Below the pieces are notes generated by a model that saw only the letters and a program-made list of their open reading frames with translations, had not been told where the DNA came from and searched no databases. The position numbers were made by a program, and so were the translations under genes. DNA of 64,000 nucleotides from Candidatus Poseidoniaceae archaeon (GTDB lineage Archaea; Thermoplasmatota; Poseidoniia; Poseidoniales; Poseidoniaceae): NCBI GenBank assembly GCA_938030705.1, contig CALHIR010000001.1, positions 1-64,000 on the forward strand, in the 5' to 3' direction. Shown in pieces: positions 410 through 24,479 of this stretch. Each line of letters begins with the position of its first letter. Position 1 is the first letter of the stretch.

Positions 410-3400
410 TCAGTTGTCCTGGCGGCGGGTCAGACCAACACCGATGGCGATGGCAAGGAGCGTACCAAGCGTACCAACTGACGGCAAAAGACCGCCCTCT
501 GTGGCGTCTTCAATGACGTCGTTCGTACCTTCTGGTAGGATGACCGTCGTTGCCGTCGATGGGCTGCTGGAAACCGAACCGTCGTTGACGGTAACCACAC
601 AACTCACCGTGTTGCCGACTGCAAAGCCGATACTGAGCGTGTTTGAACCGGCCTGGATGAGGGTCTCGTTCACCATCCAAACGATGGTCGCTGTGAGCGC
701 ATCGTTTTCTGCGTCCGAAGCGCTGTAGCTGCAGGTGAGCACATCGCCGATTTCAGGGAGCAGCGGGGTGATGGAAACGTTGTCAACCTCTGGAGCGGTG
801 TTGACGGGGTCAACGGGGTCGCTCTCTTCGCAACCCGTAGCGTCCACCGTGGTGCCGGCAGGCGTGTTGGGGCAGAGGTCATCAGCGTCCAGGACGCCGT
901 CGCCATCGCTGTCGGTTGGAGCCGTGGTGACTTCGCATCCGTCCTCATCAACCACGACGCCAGCTGTGGTGTTGGGGCAGAGGTCGTCCTGGTCGAACAC
1001 ACCGTCGCCGTCGGTGTCCACCGTGGTGTTTCCTCCAGTGTTCAAGACCACATCGAAACATACGGGCCCGTCTTCGTTAACGAAGAAGAATGCGCCGTAG
1101 GTGGTGTCGAACACCTTCAGTTCAGCGTTGAAACAATACTCTCCCGAATAGGGCAACGAGCTCACTTGGAGGTCCCAAGCACCCGCCACGCCGTAGTGTT
1201 GATCCATCGGGAAGGTTACGTGCCCTTCGTCATGCTCGGTGGCGTACCACCAGGAGGGGAAGTTCCCAGCCCCTTGCGCAGACCATTCTTCAACGACCGT
1301 TCCAGTTAACGTATGGTTGAGACTAACAGTGTACCACATTGAGACGTTTGTCGGCGTCCAACACACATCAATGTACGCTAGGACGGTATCTTCCTCGTCA
1401 TAGTAGGTTGAGACATTGAAAATGAGGATGTCGCCATCAATACCGCTCTGGTCAAGTTCTGAACAGTTGAGCTGAGTTGTCTCGGTTCCGTTGGTATCAT
1501 CATCAATGCTGATGACAAGACAGTCCTCGCCCTCAGCCTCAGTGTTGCCGTTGGTGTCCACAAACATCATCTCGACGCAGACTTCAGCACCGTCGGTCAA
1601 GCCCATGATGTCGAAGGTCGTGCTGTCGCTGTACACGCCCATGCCGTTGATGCTCACGTTGCCATAGACTTGATTGATCAAGAGGTTACCCGGAAGGAGG
1701 TAAGCCTGGTAGTAGAAGTTCCCTGACCAGTTGCCGGAGTTGTTCACGGTGTAGGACAGGCCGATGGTATCGTTGTCAATTTGCGTAATGTCGTAGTCGA
1801 AGTCAAGGTCGTAGAAGGCGTCGCTGTGATTGCCTGAGCTGTTGTTGCCCACGTTGAAGCAAGCGTAGTCGTAATCCACCCAATAGGCGTAGGTGTCCAC
1901 CTGCTGGTACAGGGAAGCATCGAGACAGTACGTGCCGTCGGACAGGCCGGAAAGGTTGCCCTGTTCACCGCTCATGTTGTTGTAGGCCGTCCACGAAGCG
2001 TTGCCTGTTGCCATGGTGGTGTTGGTCATGACCTCAACGACGGCCCACTCGATGTGGTAGTCTTCGCCCATCACGAGTTCAGAACTTTCGATGAACCACG
2101 AAACGGTGTCGCCACTGGCGTAGTTCGATTCCGTCGTGCTGGCCATCACCACACCGTCAATGTCGGTTTGGTTGCCGGATTGGTTACCGCCACCACCGGT
2201 GCTGCCGTTCCAGATGAAGAAGGGGTCATCGTCGGTGTCGAGTGTTTCCCAATAAGAAGCGTTGACCCAGCCCATCGTCACATCAAAGGAATAGTTTCCT
2301 GGGGACTGGGTTGCCAGTGCCGTGGAGGTCACGTTGTGGGTCGTAGAGAACTGGGTGTTCGTCCATGTGATGTTGCCGGAATCAACCGTCATGTTGGTGT
2401 CGGTGTTCGTGATGAACCAGTAGACGGTCATGGTTTCGTTGGTTAACGAACAGTAGGAATCAACCTCGCCGGTGAAGTTCTCTCCTTCGTCGTACACGTA
2501 CACACTAGACCATGCATAGACCGAACATTGCGGCCCCGTACTTTGGTTACCACCGCCACCGCTGCTGCCGTTCAAGACGGAGAACGCATCGTTGTCGCTG
2601 TCGAGCATCTCCCACATCGTCGAGGAGGAGTTGTACCACGAGAGGATGACCTCGAAGGAGTAGTTTCCAGCGTTTTGGTTAGCAATGGCCGAGGACGAGA
2701 CATTTTGCGTCTCAGAATACATGGTGCTGGTCCAGCTGATATTTCCTGCATCCACCGTCGTGTTCGTGTCGGTGTTGAGGATGCTCCACTCAATCATGAG
2801 CGTCTCGTTGGTCAGCGAACAGTAGGAGTCAACCTCTCCGGTGAAGTTGTCGCCCACATAGTACGCATAGTAGTCGGACCATGCATAAACCGCACAGGAC
2901 GGGCCGCTGCTCTGGTTGCCACCGCCACCGGTTGTGTTCGCCCAAACTTGAACGCTAAGGTTGGAATGGTCCACATACGTCCCGTTTGAAAGGGAAAGCA
3001 TGGTGCTGAACGTGTAGATGCCTTCCGAGAGGGAATGGATTTGCGGGTAGATGTCGTAAAAGAACCCTGAACCGTCGTAGAACATGTTGACGTTTTGCCA
3101 AGTTGCAGTAAAGTTCTGGAACCCTGAATGCGTGATGTTGGAGGTGTTGTGATTGTACAACTCCCATGTGTACGTGTACGGGGTGTTCATCATTGCACAT
3201 TCGATGTCCGACCAAGGGTACATTGAGGTGCCTTCAAAATAATAGTTGCTTGAAACATCGGTTTCCATCGAGACGAGGGTATTGTTGTAACCGCAAGCCG
3301 TGGTGGTCATCGTTGAGTTGACCTCGAAGGTGTTGCTCACATTGGCAAGGAACGACCATGAATTGTTCATCCAAACCGAGAAGTGCCCAAACACGGAGTA

Positions 3401-3808
3401 ATTGCCCGTTTGCATGTAGCTCAGATGAATATCAACTTCATTGAAGTGGTCCGTGTGGTTTGGGTGGTAGGTGACGCTCGATGTGTTGGTTTGAAACGAG
3501 GTGCTTCCATAATCAATGATTGAGCCGTTCGCGTCGTCGATCAGACCCCACGACACCATGTAGGAGTTGTTCCAAATACCGCAATACGTGTCGAGGTAGA
3601 CCGAAACGGTGTCCAGGTTGTTCCATGTTGGTTGGTACGCCTCCACTTCAAACGAGACGTTGGAAGCGTTTGTTCCACAATCAACGGTGCCACCCGAAAA
3701 ATGTGGTGCAGTGGATTCCTCAAGCGCAGAAGGTATCGTGGGTGCAAGGGCATTGGCCAAGGTAGAGAGGACCAACAAGAGGGCGAGCGTTAAGGCGCGG
3801 CTGTTCAT
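410..3808 (-). CDS. Giant secreted surface protein with tandem beta domains, TSP3-type calcium repeats and C-terminal anchor
   Basis: This 1132-residue protein starts with a clear signal peptide (NSRAL followed by a leucine-rich core ending in ANALA). The ectodomain is very rich in Asn-X-Ser/Thr sites, as expected for an N-glycosylated archaeal surface protein. The middle holds two near-identical units of about 122 residues separated by GGGGNQ linkers. Near the C-terminus are two thrombospondin-type-3-like calcium motifs (DTDGDGVFDQDDLCPN and DSDGDGVLDADDLCPN), then an Ig-like segment. The last 30 residues are GGLLPSVGTLGTLLAIAIG followed by VGLTRRQDN: one membrane helix and a basic tail, similar in layout to an archaeosortase-type sorting signal but without a motif I can name. 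Role in adhesion, particle binding or the cell envelope is inferred. No enzyme domain was seen. Confidence 0.85.
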   Translation of the reverse strand: MNSRALTLALLLVLSTLANALAPTIPSALEESTAPHFSGGTVDCGTNASNVSFEVEAYQPTWNNLDTVSVYLDTYCGIWNNSYMVSWGLIDDANGSIIDYGSTSFQTNTSSVTYHPNHTDHFNEVDIHLSYMQTGNYSVFGHFSVWMNNSWSFLANVSNTFEVNSTMTTTACGYNNTLVSMETDVSSNYYFEGTSMYPWSDIECAMMNTPYTYTWELYNHNTSNITHSGFQNFTATWQNVNMFYDGSGFFYDIYPQIHSLSEGIYTFSTMLSLSNGTYVDHSNLSVQVWANTTGGGGNQSSGPSCAVYAWSDYYAYYVGDNFTGEVDSYCSLTNETLMIEWSILNTDTNTTVDAGNISWTSTMYSETQNVSSSAIANQNAGNYSFEVILSWYNSSSTMWEMLDSDNDAFSVLNGSSGGGGNQSTGPQCSVYAWSSVYVYDEGENFTGEVDSYCSLTNETMTVYWFITNTDTNMTVDSGNITWTNTQFSTTHNVTSTALATQSPGNYSFDVTMGWVNASYWETLDTDDDPFFIWNGSTGGGGNQSGNQTDIDGVVMASTTESNYASGDTVSWFIESSELVMGEDYHIEWAVVEVMTNTTMATGNASWTAYNNMSGEQGNLSGLSDGTYCLDASLYQQVDTYAYWVDYDYACFNVGNNSSGNHSDAFYDLDFDYDITQIDNDTIGLSYTVNNSGNWSGNFYYQAYLLPGNLLINQVYGNVSINGMGVYSDSTTFDIMGLTDGAEVCVEMMFVDTNGNTEAEGEDCLVISIDDDTNGTETTQLNCSELDQSGIDGDILIFNVSTYYDEEDTVLAYIDVCWTPTNVSMWYTVSLNHTLTGTVVEEWSAQGAGNFPSWWYATEHDEGHVTFPMDQHYGVAGAWDLQVSSLPYSGEYCFNAELKVFDTTYGAFFFVNEDGPVCFDVVLNTGGNTTVDTDGDGVFDQDDLCPNTTAGVVVDEDGCEVTTAPTDSDGDGVLDADDLCPNTPAGTTVDATGCEESDPVDPVNTAPEVDNVSITPLLPEIGDVLTCSYSASDAENDALTATIVWMVNETLIQAGSNTLSIGFAVGNTVSCVVTVNDGSVSSSPSTATTVILPEGTNDVIEDATEGGLLPSVGTLGTLLAIAIGVGLTRRQDN
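2199..2561 (-). repeat. Tandem protein repeat unit 2 in the surface protein
   Basis: The second copy, about 121 codons, with CSVYAW, FTGEVDSYCSLTNET and GNYSFDV in the same order as unit 1. It ends at a third GGGGNQ linker near 2188. The identity over the cysteine-containing block suggests a recent duplication or gene conversion between the copies. Confidence 0.8.
2562..2930 (-). repeat. Tandem protein repeat unit 1 in the surface protein
   Basis: A unit of about 123 codons opening with the GGGGNQ linker and containing CAVYAW, FTGEVDSYCSLTNET, a second NTDTN segment and GNYSFEV. It aligns almost residue for residue with the next unit (2199-2561). It looks like an intragenic duplication of one beta-sandwich domain with two conserved cysteines. 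Confidence 0.8.
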
Positions 3809-3817
3809 GCGCTTTCC

Positions 3818-5599
3818 TCAATCAGAAGAGATATAAAATAACCTCAAGATGTTTCGAAGTTCTTCTGTGAGGGTGATCTCCGCGCTTTCAAGCCAACTCT
3901 CAACACTGAAAGGATGGCCTCTTGAAAGCCGTTTGGCACGCTCGCCGACCAAGGCCCACGCCGACTTTTTGCCGATGCCCGGAATCGCTTCGAGTTGCTT
4001 TTCCGAGACGGTCATCGGGTCAAGGCCCACCTCGACACCGGTGATGGAGCGGGCCCCGTGGCCGGTGATCATCACGCTGGACTGGGTCTCGAGCGGAATC
4101 TTGTATTCCACGCCAACAAGAATGGGGTAGGCCCCGATTTGCCGACCAAAGGTGATGCCGGCTTTGCCGTAGACCTCCGGGCGTCGGTGAAGGTCGGTCT
4201 CGTGCACGGGCAGGCGGGTTCGCCCGTCGTGAGATTCCCAATGGACGTCATGGATGATTTGGCCCAGCGGGAACAATTCCTCAAGGAGGGGCTTGTCAAT
4301 TTCATCCCGGCATGCCGTTTTGAACGAAGCAAAAGCCTCGGCCGGGACCTCTTGGAAGCCTTCACCTTCCACTTGACGAATGTTGATTCGGCGCAGTAAC
4401 AAGCCTTCGCTGCGTATGTCCCGAAGCAACGCCATGTTCATGCCATAACTGGCTTCGGTCTCGCCGTTGAGTCCGGCAATGAAGTTCAATCCAGGCAGTA
4501 ATTTGGGAAGGCCTCGCTCACCTCGAACACGGCCGTGCTTGTTGATGAGGCGAATGGCCGTCTTAAGTTGGCCGGGGTCGCAGTTCAACCAGTTCGCTTC
4601 GTGGACACTGGGGTCAGCCGACTCAAGACCAAAGGACAGCACGGCGCCGTCGGAGAGCGTTTCGACGAGCGTTTTGGTGATGGCTTCGGCCGGTTCAAGG
4701 TTCTCTGCGATGATGGACGGGTTGCCGTTATCGGTGTGGAGAATGCCGAGGCGTTCGTCCTCACGAAGGCCATGAAGAAGTTTCGCGATGGGTTCTGGAT
4801 TTGGAACCGGGTATTCCAACTCACGAACGCCTTCGGCCATGTAGGTGTAGGTGTCGGTCATGCCTCCAAGACGAACGTGATGGACACCGGCGTCATGGGC
4901 GATGCGCACTTCTTCGATAATATCCTCCGGTGTTCGCCAAATCGGGACGCCTTTCTTGGGCTCAATGCAGAATTTACAGCCCCGCTTGTACCGCACGCAG
5001 CCCTGGTAAACTTCCACTTCGTAGGTCAGCGGCCCGGCCTGCGTTTCGCTGCCAAGATCGGGATGTTGGGTGACCGCCTTGCTCCCAGCACCGGCTTGCG
5101 CCCAAGCCGTCCACTGTTCGGCGGTCCGGCGCTGATGTTTCCATTCCCCTTTTTCGAGGAAGTGGTGCAGCGTTGCGTCCGTGTCTTGAACGGCCAGGAA
5201 GAGGTTAGGTCGGAGCGGCGTCCAACCTTGCTGCTTCCATCCCCGAATGGCCCAGCCGCCGAATAGCGCAGGAGTTCCTTGCGGTAGACTCCGGATGAGG
5301 TGTTGGGTTTCTTTGAGTGAAATCGGCGTGCCTCGAAGGTATTTTCCGGGAACAACGGCCCCTGCGATGCACACCACGCCAAGGCAGTGCTTGAGTTGCT
5401 GTTCAATGAATTCGGGGTTGGTTTTGAGGGTCTGACGGTAGCGGTCGACGGTCATGTAATCGTAGGCCTCACCGCTCGCCTCGAGCACGCCACAGGCATA
5501 GCGGATGTGGAAGCCGACGTAGGGTGGAACACCAAAGGCGGCAGGTTCGTCTTCGTAGCCGTCCAAGACCAACCAGCGTGGCTCGGACGATTCAACCAT
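3818..5599 (-). CDS. Radical SAM protein with C-terminal helix-hairpin-helix (COG1031-like)
   Basis: A 593-residue cytoplasmic radical SAM enzyme. The cluster-binding segment GCVRYKRGCKFCIEPKKG, around residues 200-217, carries three cysteines with spacing C-x6-C-x2-C rather than the usual C-x3-C-x2-C; this agrees with the archaeal family described as radical SAM with C-terminal HhH. Later radical SAM elements include HHVRLGGM and LSFGLESAD. The C-terminal part has a helix-hairpin-helix signature, LEAIPGIGKKSAWALVGERA, near residues 535-555, which suggests nucleic acid contact. Substrate and product are unknown for this family; RNA or DNA modification is a guess from the HhH. It lies 25 bases downstream of the Csl4 gene on the same strand, so a link with RNA metabolism is possible. 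Confidence 0.82.
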   Translation of the reverse strand: MVESSEPRWLVLDGYEDEPAAFGVPPYVGFHIRYACGVLEASGEAYDYMTVDRYRQTLKTNPEFIEQQLKHCLGVVCIAGAVVPGKYLRGTPISLKETQHLIRSLPQGTPALFGGWAIRGWKQQGWTPLRPNLFLAVQDTDATLHHFLEKGEWKHQRRTAEQWTAWAQAGAGSKAVTQHPDLGSETQAGPLTYEVEVYQGCVRYKRGCKFCIEPKKGVPIWRTPEDIIEEVRIAHDAGVHHVRLGGMTDTYTYMAEGVRELEYPVPNPEPIAKLLHGLREDERLGILHTDNGNPSIIAENLEPAEAITKTLVETLSDGAVLSFGLESADPSVHEANWLNCDPGQLKTAIRLINKHGRVRGERGLPKLLPGLNFIAGLNGETEASYGMNMALLRDIRSEGLLLRRINIRQVEGEGFQEVPAEAFASFKTACRDEIDKPLLEELFPLGQIIHDVHWESHDGRTRLPVHETDLHRRPEVYGKAGITFGRQIGAYPILVGVEYKIPLETQSSVMITGHGARSITGVEVGLDPMTVSEKQLEAIPGIGKKSAWALVGERAKRLSRGHPFSVESWLESAEITLTEELRNILRLFYISSD

Positions 5600-5624: not shown

Positions 5625-7058
5625 TCAATCCTTCTTTGGGCGGGGGCGTCGCTTGCGCTTCTTTCCGCCTTCACCTTCTTCTCGAAGGGCTTGGAGTTCT
5701 CGTGAGGATTTTCCGTCGCTATCGCCACCACGGCTTCCGCCACGGTTGCCATCACGGCCACCGCCTTTGCCACCCTTGGCTTTGGCAATGTCGACCTTGA
5801 TTTTGCGGCCTTCCACCTCGCTGTTGTTGAGGGCCTCCACCACGGCGTCGCCTTTGTCTTTCTCAGCGATGAAGACGAATCCAAAGCCCTTGGCTTTGCC
5901 GCCGGGTCCGGTGGCGAGGATGACTTCGTTGACCGTGGCGTGGGCAGCGACCATGGCCTTGAGTTGGTCTTGCGTGGCCGTGAACGGGAGGTTACCGATG
6001 TAGATCTTGAGGCCCTCGGGATCTTTTCGCTCCTTCTTAGCGCCATTCTTCTTGTCGTCATCCGCATCACGCACGCCAATGCGTCGTCCGTTGATTCGGT
6101 GGCCGTCAAGGGCTTTGATGGCCGCATCGGCCATGGCTTTCTCAGCGTAGGTGACGAAGCCGAAGCCTCGGTTCACGCCGGCGTCGTCGGTCAAGACAAC
6201 GCAATCGGTCATGTCGCCGTGCGACTTGAACAGTTCGCTGAGTTCATCGGTACCAACGTCACGAGGAAGGCCACCCACGAAGAGTCGGGTGCCAGGAGCG
6301 GCTCGTTGGCGTCCACCGCCTCGGCCTCCGCTCTGTCCCTCGAATCGGAAGTAGGTACGCTCTCGTCCGTCTTCACGAACGTCGGCGGCGATGAAGGTGG
6401 CTCGACCCGCAGGGCCTTTGGCGAACATGGCTTCTGCCGCCCCGCCCCAGCGCTTGCCGGCATTGTTCAAGGCGCTTGCACCTTGGTCGAGTTCGGCCCA
6501 ACCGGCGCCGAAATTGTCGGCGAGGGCCCGGTAACCTTGGTAGCCACATGTCGGGCACTTTACGTTCCAGTCGCCGTCGAGCTCGGCTTGGAGGGTGTCG
6601 CCACAAGGCGGGCAGATGGCGTGGAGGACGCCGCAATCGTTTCGCTCTCGGAAGTCGAGGCGAACGACCGGCTCAACTTCCTTGACGACGGCACGACAGA
6701 CGTCCCGTCGGCGGAGCGCATCGGAGGTCTGGTGCATGAATCGGTCAACCAGTCCGGTGACGAAGAATTGACCGTAGAGGTGCTGGGGTTGGATGGAACC
6801 GGTTTTGCCTTCAACGGCGAGGATCATCGCTTCACCGTTCTTCTCGTTGAGTTTGACCACTTCGCACAAGACCGTGTCGCCCACAACGGGTTCCACAATT
6901 GGTTTGGAGGGGGCGACCGAGATGGCGTCGCCGTCAACATGAACATAACCAACCACGGTGGAGATGATGTTGCCGTCGGCAAGGGTTGTTCCTTCACCGT
7001 GTTCGTGTTCGCCCTCTTTGGCGATGATGCTTCCTGGGGTGACGAGGCTCGCCGTCAT
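5625..7058 (-). CDS. Exosome subunit Csl4 fused to two RRM RNA-binding domains
   Basis: About 477 residues. The first 190 match archaeal Csl4, the RNA-binding cap of the 3'-5' exosome: an N-terminal beta segment (VTPGSIIAKEG), an S1-like domain (GDTVLCEVVKLNEKNGEAM to RDVCRAVVKEV) and a zinc ribbon with CPPCG and CPTCG. After a variable region come two complete RRM folds. RRM1 has RNP2 LFVGGL and RNP1 RGFGFVTY; RRM2 has IYIGNL and KGFGFVFI. The tail is a Gly/Arg/Lys-rich disordered segment ending KKRKRRPRPKKD. Archaeal Csl4 normally stops after the zinc ribbon at about 180-200 residues, so this is roughly 2.5 times the usual length. The start is taken at ATG 7058; ATG 7067 three codons upstream is an alternative. 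The fusion should widen the RNA specificity of exosome recruitment, which is an inference. Confidence 0.88.
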   Translation of the reverse strand: MTASLVTPGSIIAKEGEHEHGEGTTLADGNIISTVVGYVHVDGDAISVAPSKPIVEPVVGDTVLCEVVKLNEKNGEAMILAVEGKTGSIQPQHLYGQFFVTGLVDRFMHQTSDALRRRDVCRAVVKEVEPVVRLDFRERNDCGVLHAICPPCGDTLQAELDGDWNVKCPTCGYQGYRALADNFGAGWAELDQGASALNNAGKRWGGAAEAMFAKGPAGRATFIAADVREDGRERTYFRFEGQSGGRGGGRQRAAPGTRLFVGGLPRDVGTDELSELFKSHGDMTDCVVLTDDAGVNRGFGFVTYAEKAMADAAIKALDGHRINGRRIGVRDADDDKKNGAKKERKDPEGLKIYIGNLPFTATQDQLKAMVAAHATVNEVILATGPGGKAKGFGFVFIAEKDKGDAVVEALNNSEVEGRKIKVDIAKAKGGKGGGRDGNRGGSRGGDSDGKSSRELQALREEGEGGKKRKRRPRPKKD

Positions 7059-7154: not shown

Positions 7155-7808
7155 TCAATCATCGTTTTCAGCGGGGAGGCGAGCGTCGCCGTGGCGGAAA
7201 AATCGCCAGCACTTCACGTCCGTTCCGCCTTGACGTTGACCGTGATGTGCGTATGTAGGCGGAAGACGAAACGTGGTTCGTAACACGACTTCGCCCGCCC
7301 AATCCGATGCGTTGGCCATCGCTTCGAGGTGAACGGCGTTGTCGCTATGGAGCACGTGGATGGCGCTGGCTTCCGAGGCAAACCCAGCCTCCAAAAACGG
7401 ACGGTCAGCTTTCGCTCGCTGAACGCCCCACGGCGGATTCATGACGATGATGTCCGGGCGGTCAAGGCTGAACTCATCGGCGCCGATATGGGCTTTCCTT
7501 ATGCTCGCACGTTGGGCCAATTCGTCGTCAAGTCCGTTGATGTTCTGCTGAAGGACTTCCGCAGCGTCCTCATCGGTTTCCACGAACACGACGTTTTCTG
7601 CGCCCAGCATCAGGGCAGCGATACCGAGGATACCGTTTCCTGCTCCGAGGTCGGCCACACGGCGCCCTTCTAACCCGTCGAGTTGGTCCACGGCGAGCAT
7701 CCAATAAGCCGCAAGGTCGCCTTCTGTAGCGTATTGCTCAAGCGTGACGTCTGCACATGGATGGGGAATGAGTTTTGACAGGGCCATCGCCAAGTGCTTC
7801 GGGCGCAC
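7155..7808 (-). CDS. METTL5-like RNA adenine-N6 methyltransferase (COG2263 family)
   Basis: A 217-residue Rossmann-fold methyltransferase. It opens with KHLAMALSKLIPHPCADVTL and LEQYATEG, closely matching the N-terminus of METTL5 and its archaeal relatives. The SAM-binding motif I is VADLGAGNGILGIAA and the catalytic motif is NPPW, of the (N/D)PP(Y/F/W) class that methylates exocyclic amines. METTL5 makes m6A in the small-subunit rRNA in eukaryotes; an equivalent rRNA target here is inferred. The start is GTG at 7808, five bases after the stop of the zinc-ribbon gene (7814-8008), so the two are probably co-translated. An internal ATG at 7787 would cut into the conserved N-terminus and is less likely. 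Confidence 0.85.
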   Translation of the reverse strand: MRPKHLAMALSKLIPHPCADVTLEQYATEGDLAAYWMLAVDQLDGLEGRRVADLGAGNGILGIAALMLGAENVVFVETDEDAAEVLQQNINGLDDELAQRASIRKAHIGADEFSLDRPDIIVMNPPWGVQRAKADRPFLEAGFASEASAIHVLHSDNAVHLEAMANASDWAGEVVLRTTFRLPPTYAHHGQRQGGTDVKCWRFFRHGDARLPAENDD

Positions 7809-7813
7809 TCACT

Positions 7814-8008
7814 TCACCAACGGCGTTGTTGGTAGGGGTTGCCCTGTGGGGGTTGTTGCGATTGCATTTGCAAGCGCATGCTGTGAATTTGTTGAGCCTC
7901 GATCCGTAGACGTTGCAACAGTTGTTCACCGGGCTGCTGGTTGCCGCAGAAACGACAAAATCGGGTGCCATCAGGGTGTTGTTGGCCGCAATTGATGCAG
8001 AATCCCAT
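7814..8008 (-). CDS. Small zinc-ribbon protein
   Basis: A 64-residue protein beginning GFCINCGQQHPDGTRFCRFCG: two CxxC pairs separated by 11 residues, a standard zinc-ribbon. The rest is a Gln-rich helical tail (ARG/GLN/PRO-rich, ending NPYQQRRW). It sits immediately upstream of the METTL5-like gene with a gap of five bases and the same strand. METTL5 in eukaryotes needs the small zinc-finger-like partner TRMT112, which raises the idea of a partner role here, but the sequence does not resemble TRMT112 and this remains a guess. Confidence 0.7.
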   Translation of the reverse strand: MGFCINCGQQHPDGTRFCRFCGNQQPGEQLLQRLRIEAQQIHSMRLQMQSQQPPQGNPYQQRRW

Positions 8009-19586: not shown

Positions 19587-22500
19587 ATGATGCGGGGTCA
19601 ACAACGGGCATCCTTGCGCACGGGTGCCGTTCTCTTTGCTCTCTTGATGCTCTTCGCAGATATCAGCGGCGGCGTGCTCTCCAACGCAACACACACGTCG
19701 GAAAGAAAGGAGTTCGAAGCACCGATTCTCATCGACGGTCTCCCTCCGCTGATGTGCGGCGAAGACCTGTGTGAACGCCCGACACGACTGATTGACCGAG
19801 GCGACCGAGCTTCTTCAGAACCCGACCAGTGGTGGCTTGCCTACGGGCCCGATTTGGATTGGAACGGCATGGACGACCGCCTTCAACGGGTACTGGACGG
19901 CCAAGAATCCATCTCACCCACCGCCATCATCGGCCCAGACGGCCGAAAAACCGTGGCCATTGTCGTCGACTACGCCTGGGCACCAAACGATGAGGAAGTG
20001 AACGAACTTCGAACGGTCCTCAACCATCACGGATGGGTGGGAGAAAACGGAGGCGCTTGGTTCCAAGTCATGAACGCCATCGACTCGGTGGTGGTTGACA
20101 AAGTCCCCGTCAGCGCTCTCATGGACCTTTACACTCTCGAGGGTGTGGTCGTCATTGAAATGCAGAACGTCATGATACCCTTCAACGGCGTGGCCAGCGA
20201 AGCCGCTCGCGCCATGCCTTCGGATGTCTATTCGGCGAGCACGTACGCCCGGGGCTACAACGGCGAGGGCGTCGTCATCGCTGTCCTCGATACCGGTGTT
20301 GACAACGAACATCGGGCGCTCAATGATTTCGATGATATTGACGACGAGCCGGAAAGCGACGCAACGAGTTACACCGACCAAAAATGGGTCGCTGGTTTCG
20401 ACGCAACTTCCTCGGCCGCCAATCCTGATGGAAGCGTTGACCCCGACGACGGCCAAGGGCACGGAACCCACGTCGCCGCAACAGCGCTTGGTACTGGCGG
20501 TGCTGGTCGAGTTCACACCGGGAGCGGCATGGGGGCTTACCTGGTTGACATCAAGGTCCTCACCGACTCGGGCGGCACCAATTCTCAAGCCTCGCTCAAC
20601 GGCATCCAGTGGATGATCAACAACAAAGACACCGACTGGGGCAACAACGAATCCAGCCGTGGCATCGACATCGGCTCGATGTCGTTTGGTTCGCTGAGCA
20701 GTCCGCTCAACCCTGACGACGAGGGCGACAACGGTTCGGGCGCAGAAGCACGCTTGGTCAATGATGCACGTGATGCGGGTATCGTCTGCATCGTCGCGAT
20801 GGGCAACGATGGCAGCAAGCGTGTTCCGTCGCCTGCCAGCGCCGACGGGGCCATTTCCATCGGGGCCGTCAACGACCGAAACTCGGTGAACCGCACCGAC
20901 GACATCGTGGCTTCTTACTCCAATTACGGTCCTCGCTTGGACGACGGGGACGACAACGAGTGGGAGGAGCTGAAGCCGGACTTGACTTCGTACGGCACCG
21001 GCATCACCTCGGCCTCAGCAGCGACCGGGCCGTCGTTCCCCGGTCAACCTGAGCGCCCGCTGGCCGACAACGAATACGAGTCTAAAGACGGAACGAGCAT
21101 GGCGACGCCTCTGGTGTCGGGTATCGTGGCCTCGTTGCTTCAAGCCGACGACACGCTTTCTCCAGAAGATATTCGTAACATTCTCCGCAATTCATCGGAG
21201 GCACGAGGTTCGGCTTCAGAACCGGATGTGTCAAATCGTTGGAACGAGAAGTGGGGTTTTGGCCTTGTTGACGCCTCGTGTGCCCTCGACCATGTCCTCG
21301 GCCGGGCATGCACGCCTTTGGAAGATAACGGCGGGGTGATCGTGAATCCTCCGCCCGGTGGTGATGGCCTCGGTGAAGATGTATCAATGACAGCACCTGT
21401 CAACCAGACGTTGCACCTGGCCGGCAACATTCTCTCGGTTGAGGGCACCACTGACCTCAGCGAACATTCTTACATCGAGGTTCAAGTGAAATTTGAACAA
21501 TTTTACGACGACGGAGAAAGCACCGAACTGACCAACTGGCTGGGAGCCGACGGCACGATTGAAGACTGGTACTTTGACATCACGGTGGACGATGATTGGG
21601 TCGATGCTGATGAAGCCTATACCCTGGTGTACGCTCGTGCTCTCAACGAGGACGGCGAAGCTTCCGTGGTCGATGTCCGCATCGTTCGTTTTGCTCGCAT
21701 GTCGGTTTCCGTTTCAGAACCTCCGCTTGGAACCGCTTTGGTTGGACTCGTTGAATTCTCTGGAACGGCCGAAGGCATTGAGCATGACCGTATTGAATAC
21801 AAGGTCGACAGTCAAGATTGGCAACTCGGCGATACCCTCAACCAAGACGGCGAAGGCGTTCAAGATTGGTCCCTCACCTGGGATTCCACCGAGGTGGACG
21901 ATGGCTCCCACCGAATCAGTGTGCGGATGGTCAACGCATCGGGCGTGGTCAGCGATGTGCTGAAGCGAACCTACGAAGTCGACAACCTGCCTGCAGCTCC
22001 CGACTTTGCCTTCACGGGAACCGTGGGCGTGTACGACGGGGGCCTTCCGGTCAATACCGCCGTCGCCGGTACCGTTCTCGAAGTTCGTTTTGGCCTTCGA
22101 AACATTGGCGATCTGGACGCCAACGAAGTCTACCTTACGTTGGACGGACCGGGTTCTGACTCGACCACCTACCCGTCCGAGGGCAAAGTGACCTCACTCG
22201 AACAAGGCGAAAGTGTCCAAGTTACCCTTTACTGGTGGGCCACGGAAGCCGGCACACACGACGTGACATTATCCCTTGACCCAACCAACCAATACGAAGA
22301 CCCTGACCGCACCGATAACGATTACACCTTCAGTTTCACCATCGAGGAGCGACCGGTTGAACCCATGCTTCGTTTCCTCCCCGGTGCTGCTCGCACCACA
22401 CCCGATGTGCCGGTGCCCGGTACGCCCTACGACCTTCGCCTTCGCGTCGACAATCTGGGGCAAACCGATGCGAGCGGTCTTAACCTTGGCCTGGAACGTT

Positions 22501-24479
22501 GGATTGAGGAAGTTGGATGGCAACGAATTGATGATCAATCCGTAGCCTTGGTCCCTGGTTCAAGCACGACCTCCGGCTATGCCTTCGCCCGATTTGCAGA
22601 TGTCCATGATTCGGCAGGGGCCGTCTCCTATCGTGCTGTACTGAGCGGTTCAGGTGTTGAAATCGAGCACAAGGAACTCCGATTCAACGTCACCATCGCC
22701 AACGTCCAAGCCGGTTCTAAAGTAGGCATTTCGCTCTCGACAGGCGAGGTCGCCATCGATTTCGTCGGTTTGAAGGACGGGGGGCTCCTCTTCACGACCA
22801 TTGACGGAGAACTCCATGCTCGAACCATCACCTCAACCCTCGCCATGGTCGGTGGCGTGGTTCTCGAAGAAAATTGGGGCGGTGAATTGGCCGTCTATCA
22901 GCGAGACGATGGATTGGTGCAGGTTGCGTGGGCACGTCGCTCAATGAGTGTCGAAGGCTACATCCTGACCGACATCGCCATGACGTCCATCTCCGCCGCT
23001 GGAAAAACGACACCGAAGCACTACCACATGCCCGCTCTCAAACTCTCAGAGGGTTCCTATTACGGCTTCAACTTCGATCAATACGACGGCACCATGGTTC
23101 TTGCAGGCTACCATCGAGACCTTTCCACCAGTGGTTCCTGGCAAGACATCACCTCGCTCTTTGTCATCTCGTCCACCTCCCCGGACAGAGGGAATTCTTG
23201 GAGCAGCCCGCTCACCGTTCTCTCTGATATTGATATTCGTCCCGGTGATGCTCAACCGCTCGCGGTTGGTCTTGGTGAGGAATACCTTCACCTGATTTAC
23301 CAAGAATACAGAGACGATGTCTCGGGCATCGAGCGTGTTGGGCTCATGTACACGCACGGCGCTTACACCTCCTCCTCTTGGAGTTTCCAATACTCCATTG
23401 GTGACGATGCGAAACACCCTGCCATCGAAGTGCTCGTTGAGGATGATGAAGACCGTCTCATCGTGGCATGGGCCGAAGGCCAAGGCAAGGTCTCAAACGT
23501 CGTGGTAGCGAACACCAATGCGCTTTGGTCGGGCGATGACGTTCAACGCATCCTCGCTCCTGGCGTCTCAACGCTTGGCTTTGCCTCTCGCGACGAGGGA
23601 GTTTACCTCTACCACGACGAAATCAACATTTACGGCCCCGTTCATCGAATGGGACTTGTCGCTGATAGCGACGGTGAAACGCTGCAAGGCATGTCAAACA
23701 TGCTCGACGATGGCTACTTGTACGGCATTGCCGTGATGAAAGAAGACACCATCATCTGTTCCATCACGCCCGGTGGCTCCCTAAGTTTGAGCAAGGTGGC
23801 TTCCCTCCAAGGCTCCAACAACCCGGTCGAATCCCCCGGTCTTTTGGAAACGCTTCTTGATTACCTCCCCGGTGGTTCAAACGAGGTGAAATACCGAATC
23901 CTCGCTGCCAGCATGGTTCTTTTGGTCCTCTTCTTGGGTGCCGTCGTTGTTATGGTTCGTCGCTCCCACAGCGAAGTGGAAGAACTGCTCGAGGAAATGG
24001 CCGAGGAAGGTGAGGTTGTGGAGATCATGATCATGCCCGAACATGACGCAGGCCCGTTGCTTTCCATCGATGATGACGCCGAGGAACTCACGGTCCAAGA
24101 AAGCCAACTCTCGGTGGTCAAAGAGGATGAAGAGGAAACGTTGGCCGAAGAACTTGAACGTAAACTCGAGGACGGGGGGGGCAATGCTCGCCTTGAACGG
24201 CGAATGAAGCGAAAGCAGCAGCGGGAAATGGAGGCTATTTTGCAAAAAGGTCTCCCTCCTCTGCCCACGCCGGAACTTCCCCTGCCCATTCCAAACCTTC
24301 CAATGCCCGATGCCCTCCCACCGCTGGAGGGGAACGCTCCCCTTCCGACGCCGTCGTTGCCTCTGCCCGACTTGAAGCGCGAAGTATCATGCCCTTCATG
24401 CAAGGCCAGCTTTGGTGTGAAAGACTTGATGCTGAAGCGTATTTCCTGCCCGGTGTGCGCCAACAGTTTCGACTTGTGA
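19587..24479 (+). CDS. Giant membrane-anchored subtilisin-like protease with cytosolic zinc ribbon
   Basis: About 1630 residues. A signal peptide follows the start (TGAVLFALLMLFADISGG); a GAGAGGTGA stretch precedes ATG 19587, with ATG 19590 equally possible. After a propeptide-like region comes a peptidase S8 domain with catalytic Asp near 235 (VIAVLDTGVD), His near 292 (GHGTHVAA) and Ser near 504 (DGTSMATPLVSG). Then follow Ig-like and CARDB-like beta domains (for example LRNIGDLDANEVYL) and a long beta-propeller-like region. One membrane helix (AASMVLLVLFLGAVVVMV) precedes an acidic coiled segment, Leu-Pro-x-Pro repeats, and a final zinc ribbon with CPSCKASFG and CPVCANSF. It should digest extracellular protein at the cell surface; a zinc ribbon on the inside of a surface protease is unusual. 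Confidence 0.88.
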   Translation: MMRGQQRASLRTGAVLFALLMLFADISGGVLSNATHTSERKEFEAPILIDGLPPLMCGEDLCERPTRLIDRGDRASSEPDQWWLAYGPDLDWNGMDDRLQRVLDGQESISPTAIIGPDGRKTVAIVVDYAWAPNDEEVNELRTVLNHHGWVGENGGAWFQVMNAIDSVVVDKVPVSALMDLYTLEGVVVIEMQNVMIPFNGVASEAARAMPSDVYSASTYARGYNGEGVVIAVLDTGVDNEHRALNDFDDIDDEPESDATSYTDQKWVAGFDATSSAANPDGSVDPDDGQGHGTHVAATALGTGGAGRVHTGSGMGAYLVDIKVLTDSGGTNSQASLNGIQWMINNKDTDWGNNESSRGIDIGSMSFGSLSSPLNPDDEGDNGSGAEARLVNDARDAGIVCIVAMGNDGSKRVPSPASADGAISIGAVNDRNSVNRTDDIVASYSNYGPRLDDGDDNEWEELKPDLTSYGTGITSASAATGPSFPGQPERPLADNEYESKDGTSMATPLVSGIVASLLQADDTLSPEDIRNILRNSSEARGSASEPDVSNRWNEKWGFGLVDASCALDHVLGRACTPLEDNGGVIVNPPPGGDGLGEDVSMTAPVNQTLHLAGNILSVEGTTDLSEHSYIEVQVKFEQFYDDGESTELTNWLGADGTIEDWYFDITVDDDWVDADEAYTLVYARALNEDGEASVVDVRIVRFARMSVSVSEPPLGTALVGLVEFSGTAEGIEHDRIEYKVDSQDWQLGDTLNQDGEGVQDWSLTWDSTEVDDGSHRISVRMVNASGVVSDVLKRTYEVDNLPAAPDFAFTGTVGVYDGGLPVNTAVAGTVLEVRFGLRNIGDLDANEVYLTLDGPGSDSTTYPSEGKVTSLEQGESVQVTLYWWATEAGTHDVTLSLDPTNQYEDPDRTDNDYTFSFTIEERPVEPMLRFLPGAARTTPDVPVPGTPYDLRLRVDNLGQTDASGLNLGLERWIEEVGWQRIDDQSVALVPGSSTTSGYAFARFADVHDSAGAVSYRAVLSGSGVEIEHKELRFNVTIANVQAGSKVGISLSTGEVAIDFVGLKDGGLLFTTIDGELHARTITSTLAMVGGVVLEENWGGELAVYQRDDGLVQVAWARRSMSVEGYILTDIAMTSISAAGKTTPKHYHMPALKLSEGSYYGFNFDQYDGTMVLAGYHRDLSTSGSWQDITSLFVISSTSPDRGNSWSSPLTVLSDIDIRPGDAQPLAVGLGEEYLHLIYQEYRDDVSGIERVGLMYTHGAYTSSSWSFQYSIGDDAKHPAIEVLVEDDEDRLIVAWAEGQGKVSNVVVANTNALWSGDDVQRILAPGVSTLGFASRDEGVYLYHDEINIYGPVHRMGLVADSDGETLQGMSNMLDDGYLYGIAVMKEDTIICSITPGGSLSLSKVASLQGSNNPVESPGLLETLLDYLPGGSNEVKYRILAASMVLLVLFLGAVVVMVRRSHSEVEELLEEMAEEGEVVEIMIMPEHDAGPLLSIDDDAEELTVQESQLSVVKEDEEETLAEELERKLEDGGGNARLERRMKRKQQREMEAILQKGLPPLPTPELPLPIPNLPMPDALPPLEGNAPLPTPSLPLPDLKREVSCPSCKASFGVKDLMLKRISCPVCANSFDL
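24388..24473 (+). other. Cytosolic zinc ribbon at the end of the subtilase
   Basis: Encodes CPSCKASFG, then 12-15 residues, then CPVCANSFDL, a two-CxxC zinc ribbon. It sits beyond the membrane helix of the protease, so by topology it is inside the cell. Confidence 0.8.

Follow-up and report, generated by a model that had tools for sequence, protein, structure and literature searches.

The locus considered here lies in a window of 64,000 nucleotides (the whole stretch of DNA analysed, from contig CALHIR010000001.1 of the Candidatus Poseidoniaceae archaeon assembly GCA_938030705.1). At positions 7058..5625 on the minus strand, the window carries a single intact frame of 477 amino acids (aa) comprising an archaeal Csl4, two canonical RRM domains, and a basic tail. 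The frame is open from 7103 to 5625 (minus strand), an ATG at 7058 yields the 477-aa protein, and the stop codon is TGA. An identical single-frame layout of this Csl4-RRM-RRM fusion gene (5625..7058, minus strand) is found across the sampled genomes of Poseidoniaceae, the family to which this genome belongs.

The Csl4 core (aa 1-186; 6501..7058, minus strand) consists of an ECR1_N domain (aa 5-42), an S1-like domain, and a C-terminal zinc ribbon. It matches the NCBIfam model of archaeal Csl4 (NF034126) over aa 5-183 with 96.7 bits (curated cut-off 90) and Pfam ECR1_N (PF14382) with 35.7 bits (cut-off 27), and it matches PDB entry 2ba1_A both by sequence (E 3.4e-12) and by fold (Foldseek E 4.6e-16); no Pfam S1 match to the window protein was reported above threshold. 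The zinc ribbon cysteines are C149, C152, C168, and C171 (6546..6614, minus strand). Among 45 aligned proteins of Poseidoniaceae and the second family of Poseidoniales, C149 and C168 are present in all and C152 and C171 in 44. The window protein exceeds the usual length of Csl4, which ends soon after the zinc ribbon (a typical rather than strictly defining attribute). The first-pass annotation had described that ending as normal for archaea, and this holds wherever it was checked elsewhere in the phylum, namely in the sister family within the class and in long-frame cases. Four long Csl4 frames from elsewhere in the phylum were considered as other fusions and rejected: most of their excess length precedes the Csl4 domain, and none of them has an RRM.

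Between the zinc ribbon and the first RRM lies a conserved, lineage-specific segment (aa 187-245; 6324..6500, minus strand) with the motif LNxxGKRWxxAAExxFAKGPxxR...ADxRxDG. Helices are predicted at aa 194-219 and disorder thereafter. The segment is conserved between the two Poseidoniales families, with invariant G, N, RW, D, and R in its alignment, and a Pfam search with aa 184-255 returned no match. A profile built on the segment matches Csl4 in 63 of 64 sampled Poseidoniales genomes, once per genome; it matches none of five sister-family genomes and, among other Thermoplasmatota, yields one marginal match with an internal stop. Judged by this profile, the segment is restricted to Poseidoniales Csl4 in the sampled genomes. 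It is followed by a hinge rich in glycine and arginine ahead of RRM1 (aa 241-255; 6294..6338, minus strand), where pLDDT stays below 50 up to aa 253.

RRM1 (aa 256-332; 6063..6293, minus strand) has the RNP2 motif LFVGGL and the RNP1 motif RGFGFVTY, and RRM2 (aa 350-425; 5784..6011, minus strand) has IYIGNL and KGFGFVFI. The two copies of RRM_1 (PF00076) total 111.6 bits and singly score 72.4 (at 6078-6284) and 47.2 (at 5796-6005), against a cut-off of 20.7. Their motifs had been called canonical in the first-pass annotation, and rightly so: the RNP1/RNP2 core aromatics are intact in both RRMs of 30/30 aligned Poseidoniaceae rows, as well as in 15/15 rows of the second family. The final RNP1 position of RRM2 is Ile, not an aromatic residue. 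The remaining tail (aa 426-477; 5628..5783, minus strand) is basic (pI 11) and rich in glycine, includes a helix, SSRELQALREE (around aa 452-462), and ends in KKRKRRPRPKKD. Poseidoniaceae Csl4 proteins end in this conserved helix motif (SSRExxAxREE; 5628-5783 in the window), which is absent from the proteins of the second family and is possibly a docking motif. The first-pass annotation had pointed out neither this helix nor the segment at about aa 187-245.

In the AlphaFold prediction, the Csl4 part and both RRMs, the latter well folded, are linked by poorly predicted stretches. Both RRMs adopt the beta-alpha-beta-beta-alpha-beta order (pLDDT about 85), whereas the relative placement of the domains is not given by the model (pTM = 0.42). 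The best Foldseek matches of the model are archaeal Csl4 (2ba1_A) and the tandem RRMs of Sxl/HuD/HuR. Every segment of the protein has a median dN/dS below 0.25: as rough figures, given that synonymous sites are near saturation, the values are 0.036 for aa 187-245 (the lowest of the whole protein), 0.083 for Csl4, 0.062 for RRM1, 0.107 for RRM2, and 0.198 for the tail. Since constraint is strongest in the segment at aa 187-245, we suggest that some of the protein's function sits there; a docking role for it is a guess.

That an assembly join or frameshift has fused two genes is a reading to which we assign practically no weight. A start of a separate RRM protein near the junction is unlikely, since aa 225-259 contain no ATG, GTG, or TTG. 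The first-pass annotation would have been overturned by separate genes in close relatives, with a break near 6300-6500; instead, many genomes from 11 genera of Poseidoniaceae, assembled independently of one another, carry the fusion as one frame, and a one-RRM form is found in genera of the second family, which refutes the artefact reading. The Csl4-RRM fusion is real, neither an assembly join nor a one-off, and the earlier description of one frame joining Csl4 to two complete RRMs is borne out by profiles (ECR1_N and two RRM_1 matches), by the predicted folds, and by recurrence.

Upstream of the fusion gene is a Rossmann methyltransferase with an NPPWG motif (7155..7808, minus strand), preceded by a zinc-ribbon ORF of 64 aa (7814..8008, minus strand; PF13240, 28.9 bits, cut-off 25). 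Downstream, 25 bp past the Csl4-RRM stop, is a radical SAM gene (3818..5599, minus strand; PF04055, 40.9 bits). Pfam agrees with the radical SAM and zinc-ribbon labels given previously, while no profile confirmed the label 'METTL5-like' for the methyltransferase, whose matches are to Cons_hypoth95/RsmD, MTS, and PrmA. The pairing of methyltransferase and Csl4 is kept in both Poseidoniales families and in the sister family; as the latter has the pair without an RRM, this tie is older than the RRM fusion. The radical SAM neighbour is kept in most loci examined from the two Poseidoniales families. Two deep Poseidoniaceae loci (L186 and L187) have Csl4 inverted with respect to the methyltransferase. 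Farther along the window, an Asn/Ser/Thr-rich ORF of 1132 aa (410-3808, minus strand), without any match in Pfam, has DxDxDG-type repeats close to the C-terminus, where it finishes in a hydrophobic stretch; its appearance is that of a protein secreted or exposed at the surface.

The genes for Rrp4, Rrp41, and Rrp42 are adjacent to one another elsewhere in this genome. Rrp4 (149.5 bits, cut-off 200) and Rrp42 (237 bits, cut-off 280) fall below the curated cut-offs, but these models are clearly the best ones and both genes lie beside Rrp41. Upstream of the three are ORFs that, by eye, resemble a proteasome alpha subunit and SBDS. In addition to the exosome, this archaeon has a ribonuclease PH of bacterial type (TIGR01966, 242 bits, cut-off 141.5; L176:2789-3625, plus strand; G000:C27 near 76845), and a third RNase_PH match is present in the genomes of both Poseidoniales families that were searched and not in the two sister-family genomes. 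The genome also encodes a DnaG that retains its three regions, the C-terminal one diverged, and the idea that the RRMs replaced DnaG was rejected on this ground. Relative to sister-family DnaG, the C-terminal domain has diverged in Poseidoniales (L195, G000:C15 near 22485-23651, and L196-L199).

Poseidoniales are abundant archaea of the surface ocean. Our survey covered a sample of Thermoplasmatota, and other archaeal phyla may hold fusions too. A class-wide search found the fusion frame recurring in Poseidoniaceae, with a few copies cut by contig ends. Sampled genomes of this family have Csl4 with two RRMs; translated proteins of the second family have Csl4, the conserved segment, a CxxC-x17-CxxC zinc finger (TIGR04272/PF23477), and one RRM. 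The zinc finger is found in 15 of the 45 aligned proteins, which is the number of second-family rows, and has no match in the window protein. In the sister family, Csl4 has its ordinary length and the single RRM is encoded apart from it, by an ORF of about 100 aa on a different contig. Tallied by rows, the phylum sample holds 71 Poseidoniaceae genomes with at least two RRM matches, 54 second-family genomes with one (G055 with two), and 8 sister-family genomes, each with one small RRM ORF. Outside the class, RRMs are as scarce as had been claimed for archaea, occurring in 21 of about 255 sampled genomes; those listed or inspected are small standalone ORFs apart from Csl4. Nearly all sampled Poseidoniales genomes have RRMs only within Csl4, and in the genomes examined no second Csl4 without an RRM was seen, the second matches there being Rrp4-like. 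One Poseidoniaceae genome (G080, contigs C15 and C16) has two additional small RRM ORFs beside the fusion, which is unusual for the family.

With both Poseidoniales families fused and the sister family and the rest of the sampled phylum separate, the fusion is most simply, and on these sequence comparisons probably, ancestral to Poseidoniales. Before the two families split, Csl4 would have been joined to a small RRM gene of bacterial type, of the kind that is still separate in the sister family. In a tree of RRMs (a short alignment of 78 columns, with many open forks), RRM1 of Poseidoniaceae forms one group next to the RRMs of the second family, some RRM2 copies join that assemblage and others form a divergent group, and RRMs of the sister family and the remaining phylum group with bacterial ones. 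This topology fits an RRM of bacterial type that was captured and later duplicated, without constituting proof.

What might such a protein do? We infer exosome assembly, RNA binding, a sequence preference, and an effect on substrate choice for it. The gene product would be the C-terminally extended Csl4 cap subunit of the Poseidoniales exosome, and its N-terminal domain would dock on the ring of Rrp41 and Rrp42 in the usual archaeal manner. Above the pore, the two RRMs and the basic tail would be held by the zinc ribbon, the lineage-specific segment, and the flexible Gly/Arg hinge. There the RRMs may bind single-stranded RNA, raise the local concentration of substrate, and, together with DnaG and Rrp4, influence the choice of RNAs for degradation or tailing. 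Domains and fold, distribution, selection, the partner genes, the RRM tree, and an engineered precedent lead us to consider it fairly probable that the RRMs act as arms which are tethered to the exosome cap and capture RNA. In Sulfolobus, DnaG binding requires Csl4. When Csl4 was engineered to carry DnaG's RNA-binding domain at its C-terminus, the fusion bound poly(A) strongly and its exosome outperformed all others tested in efficiency (PMC4227792). Several considerations count against RNA capture: because DnaG is retained, an additional RNA binder is not obviously needed; RRMs can bind protein, as the RRM of RBM7 binds ZCCHC8 (PMC5322736); the strongest constraint falls on the segment ahead of the RRMs; and the model, with its pTM of 0.42, does not place the domains. 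More tentatively, and with somewhat less than even confidence, we propose that the segment at aa 187-245 and the RRMs form a built-in, sequence-preferring RNA-targeting module in the cap, one polypeptide taking the place of separate, eukaryotic-style RNA-binding cofactors.

Other functions are conceivable for the same architecture. The RRMs and the lineage-specific segment might anchor the exosome at the ribosome or on pre-rRNA and so serve the maturation or decay of rRNA, instead of selecting mRNAs by sequence. In a PDB sequence search, the RRM pair best matches a chloroplast ribosomal protein with tandem RRMs (5mmj_v, E 5e-32), and the adjacent methyltransferase matches rRNA methyltransferase models and adjoins Csl4 even in the sister family; yet that tie predates the fusion, being found in the sister family without an RRM, and the RRM matches reflect the domain class, with mRNA binders such as PABP scoring nearly as high. 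We regard such a tether as unlikely. Somewhat less likely still is a C-terminal region that serves mainly as a protein docking platform (e.g. for a helicase or other decay factor), with RRMs that bind partners more than RNA. Contacts between RRMs and proteins are known in exosome cofactors (RBM7-ZCCHC8; PMC5322736), aa 187-245 are the most constrained part, and the short C-terminal helix motif is kept in Poseidoniaceae, but the core aromatics of RNP1 and RNP2, intact in all 30 and all 15 rows of the two families, are as expected for RNA binding. We give the least credence among these three to a protein with an additional, exosome-independent role, as a general RNA chaperone or hnRNP-like protein, replacing the sister family's standalone RRM protein. 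The sister family does have such a protein and Poseidoniales almost never do, and similar tails rich in Gly and Arg are found on standalone bacterial RRM proteins; against this, the protein has an entire Csl4 part on which purifying selection acts, and the genomes examined have no second, RRM-free Csl4.

No description of a Csl4-RRM fusion, or of work on the Poseidoniales exosome, was found in the open-access literature that was searched. Should the RRMs function as tethered RNA-capture arms, an archaeal exosome gained direct RNA targeting through a bacterial-type RRM fused to its cap, and the two Poseidoniales families provide natural two-RRM and one-RRM versions for comparison. The segment at aa 187-245 offers a new conserved target for partner searches.

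The protein shares the ECR1_N domain, the S1 fold, the zinc ribbon, and the exosome partners encoded in the genome with archaeal Csl4 (2ba1_A, AF_0206; NF034126), but differs from it in about 290 more C-terminal residues, i.e. the lineage-specific segment, two RRMs, and the basic tail. With the small bacterial-type RRM proteins (NF058537, Rbp_regulator, which scores 102 bits on the window protein against a cut-off of 100; standalone RRM proteins of cyanobacteria and others), it has in common an RRM_1 near the RNP consensus; those proteins are standalone and about 80-120 aa long, whereas here the domain is fused to an exosome subunit and, in Poseidoniaceae, doubled. Like the engineered Csl4-NT (Hou et al. 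2014, PMC4227792), it bears a putative RNA-binding domain on the C-terminus of a full-length Csl4; Csl4-NT was made in the laboratory with the N-terminal domain of DnaG, whereas the Poseidoniales version is natural, uses RRMs, and coexists with a retained DnaG. In the eukaryotic NEXT complex, RBM7 acts with ZCCHC8 and MTR4, and the likeness is an RRM protein that helps to bring RNA to the exosome, as the Poseidoniales protein may do; NEXT is a separate cofactor complex with a helicase, whereas the Poseidoniales RRMs are part of the cap subunit itself.
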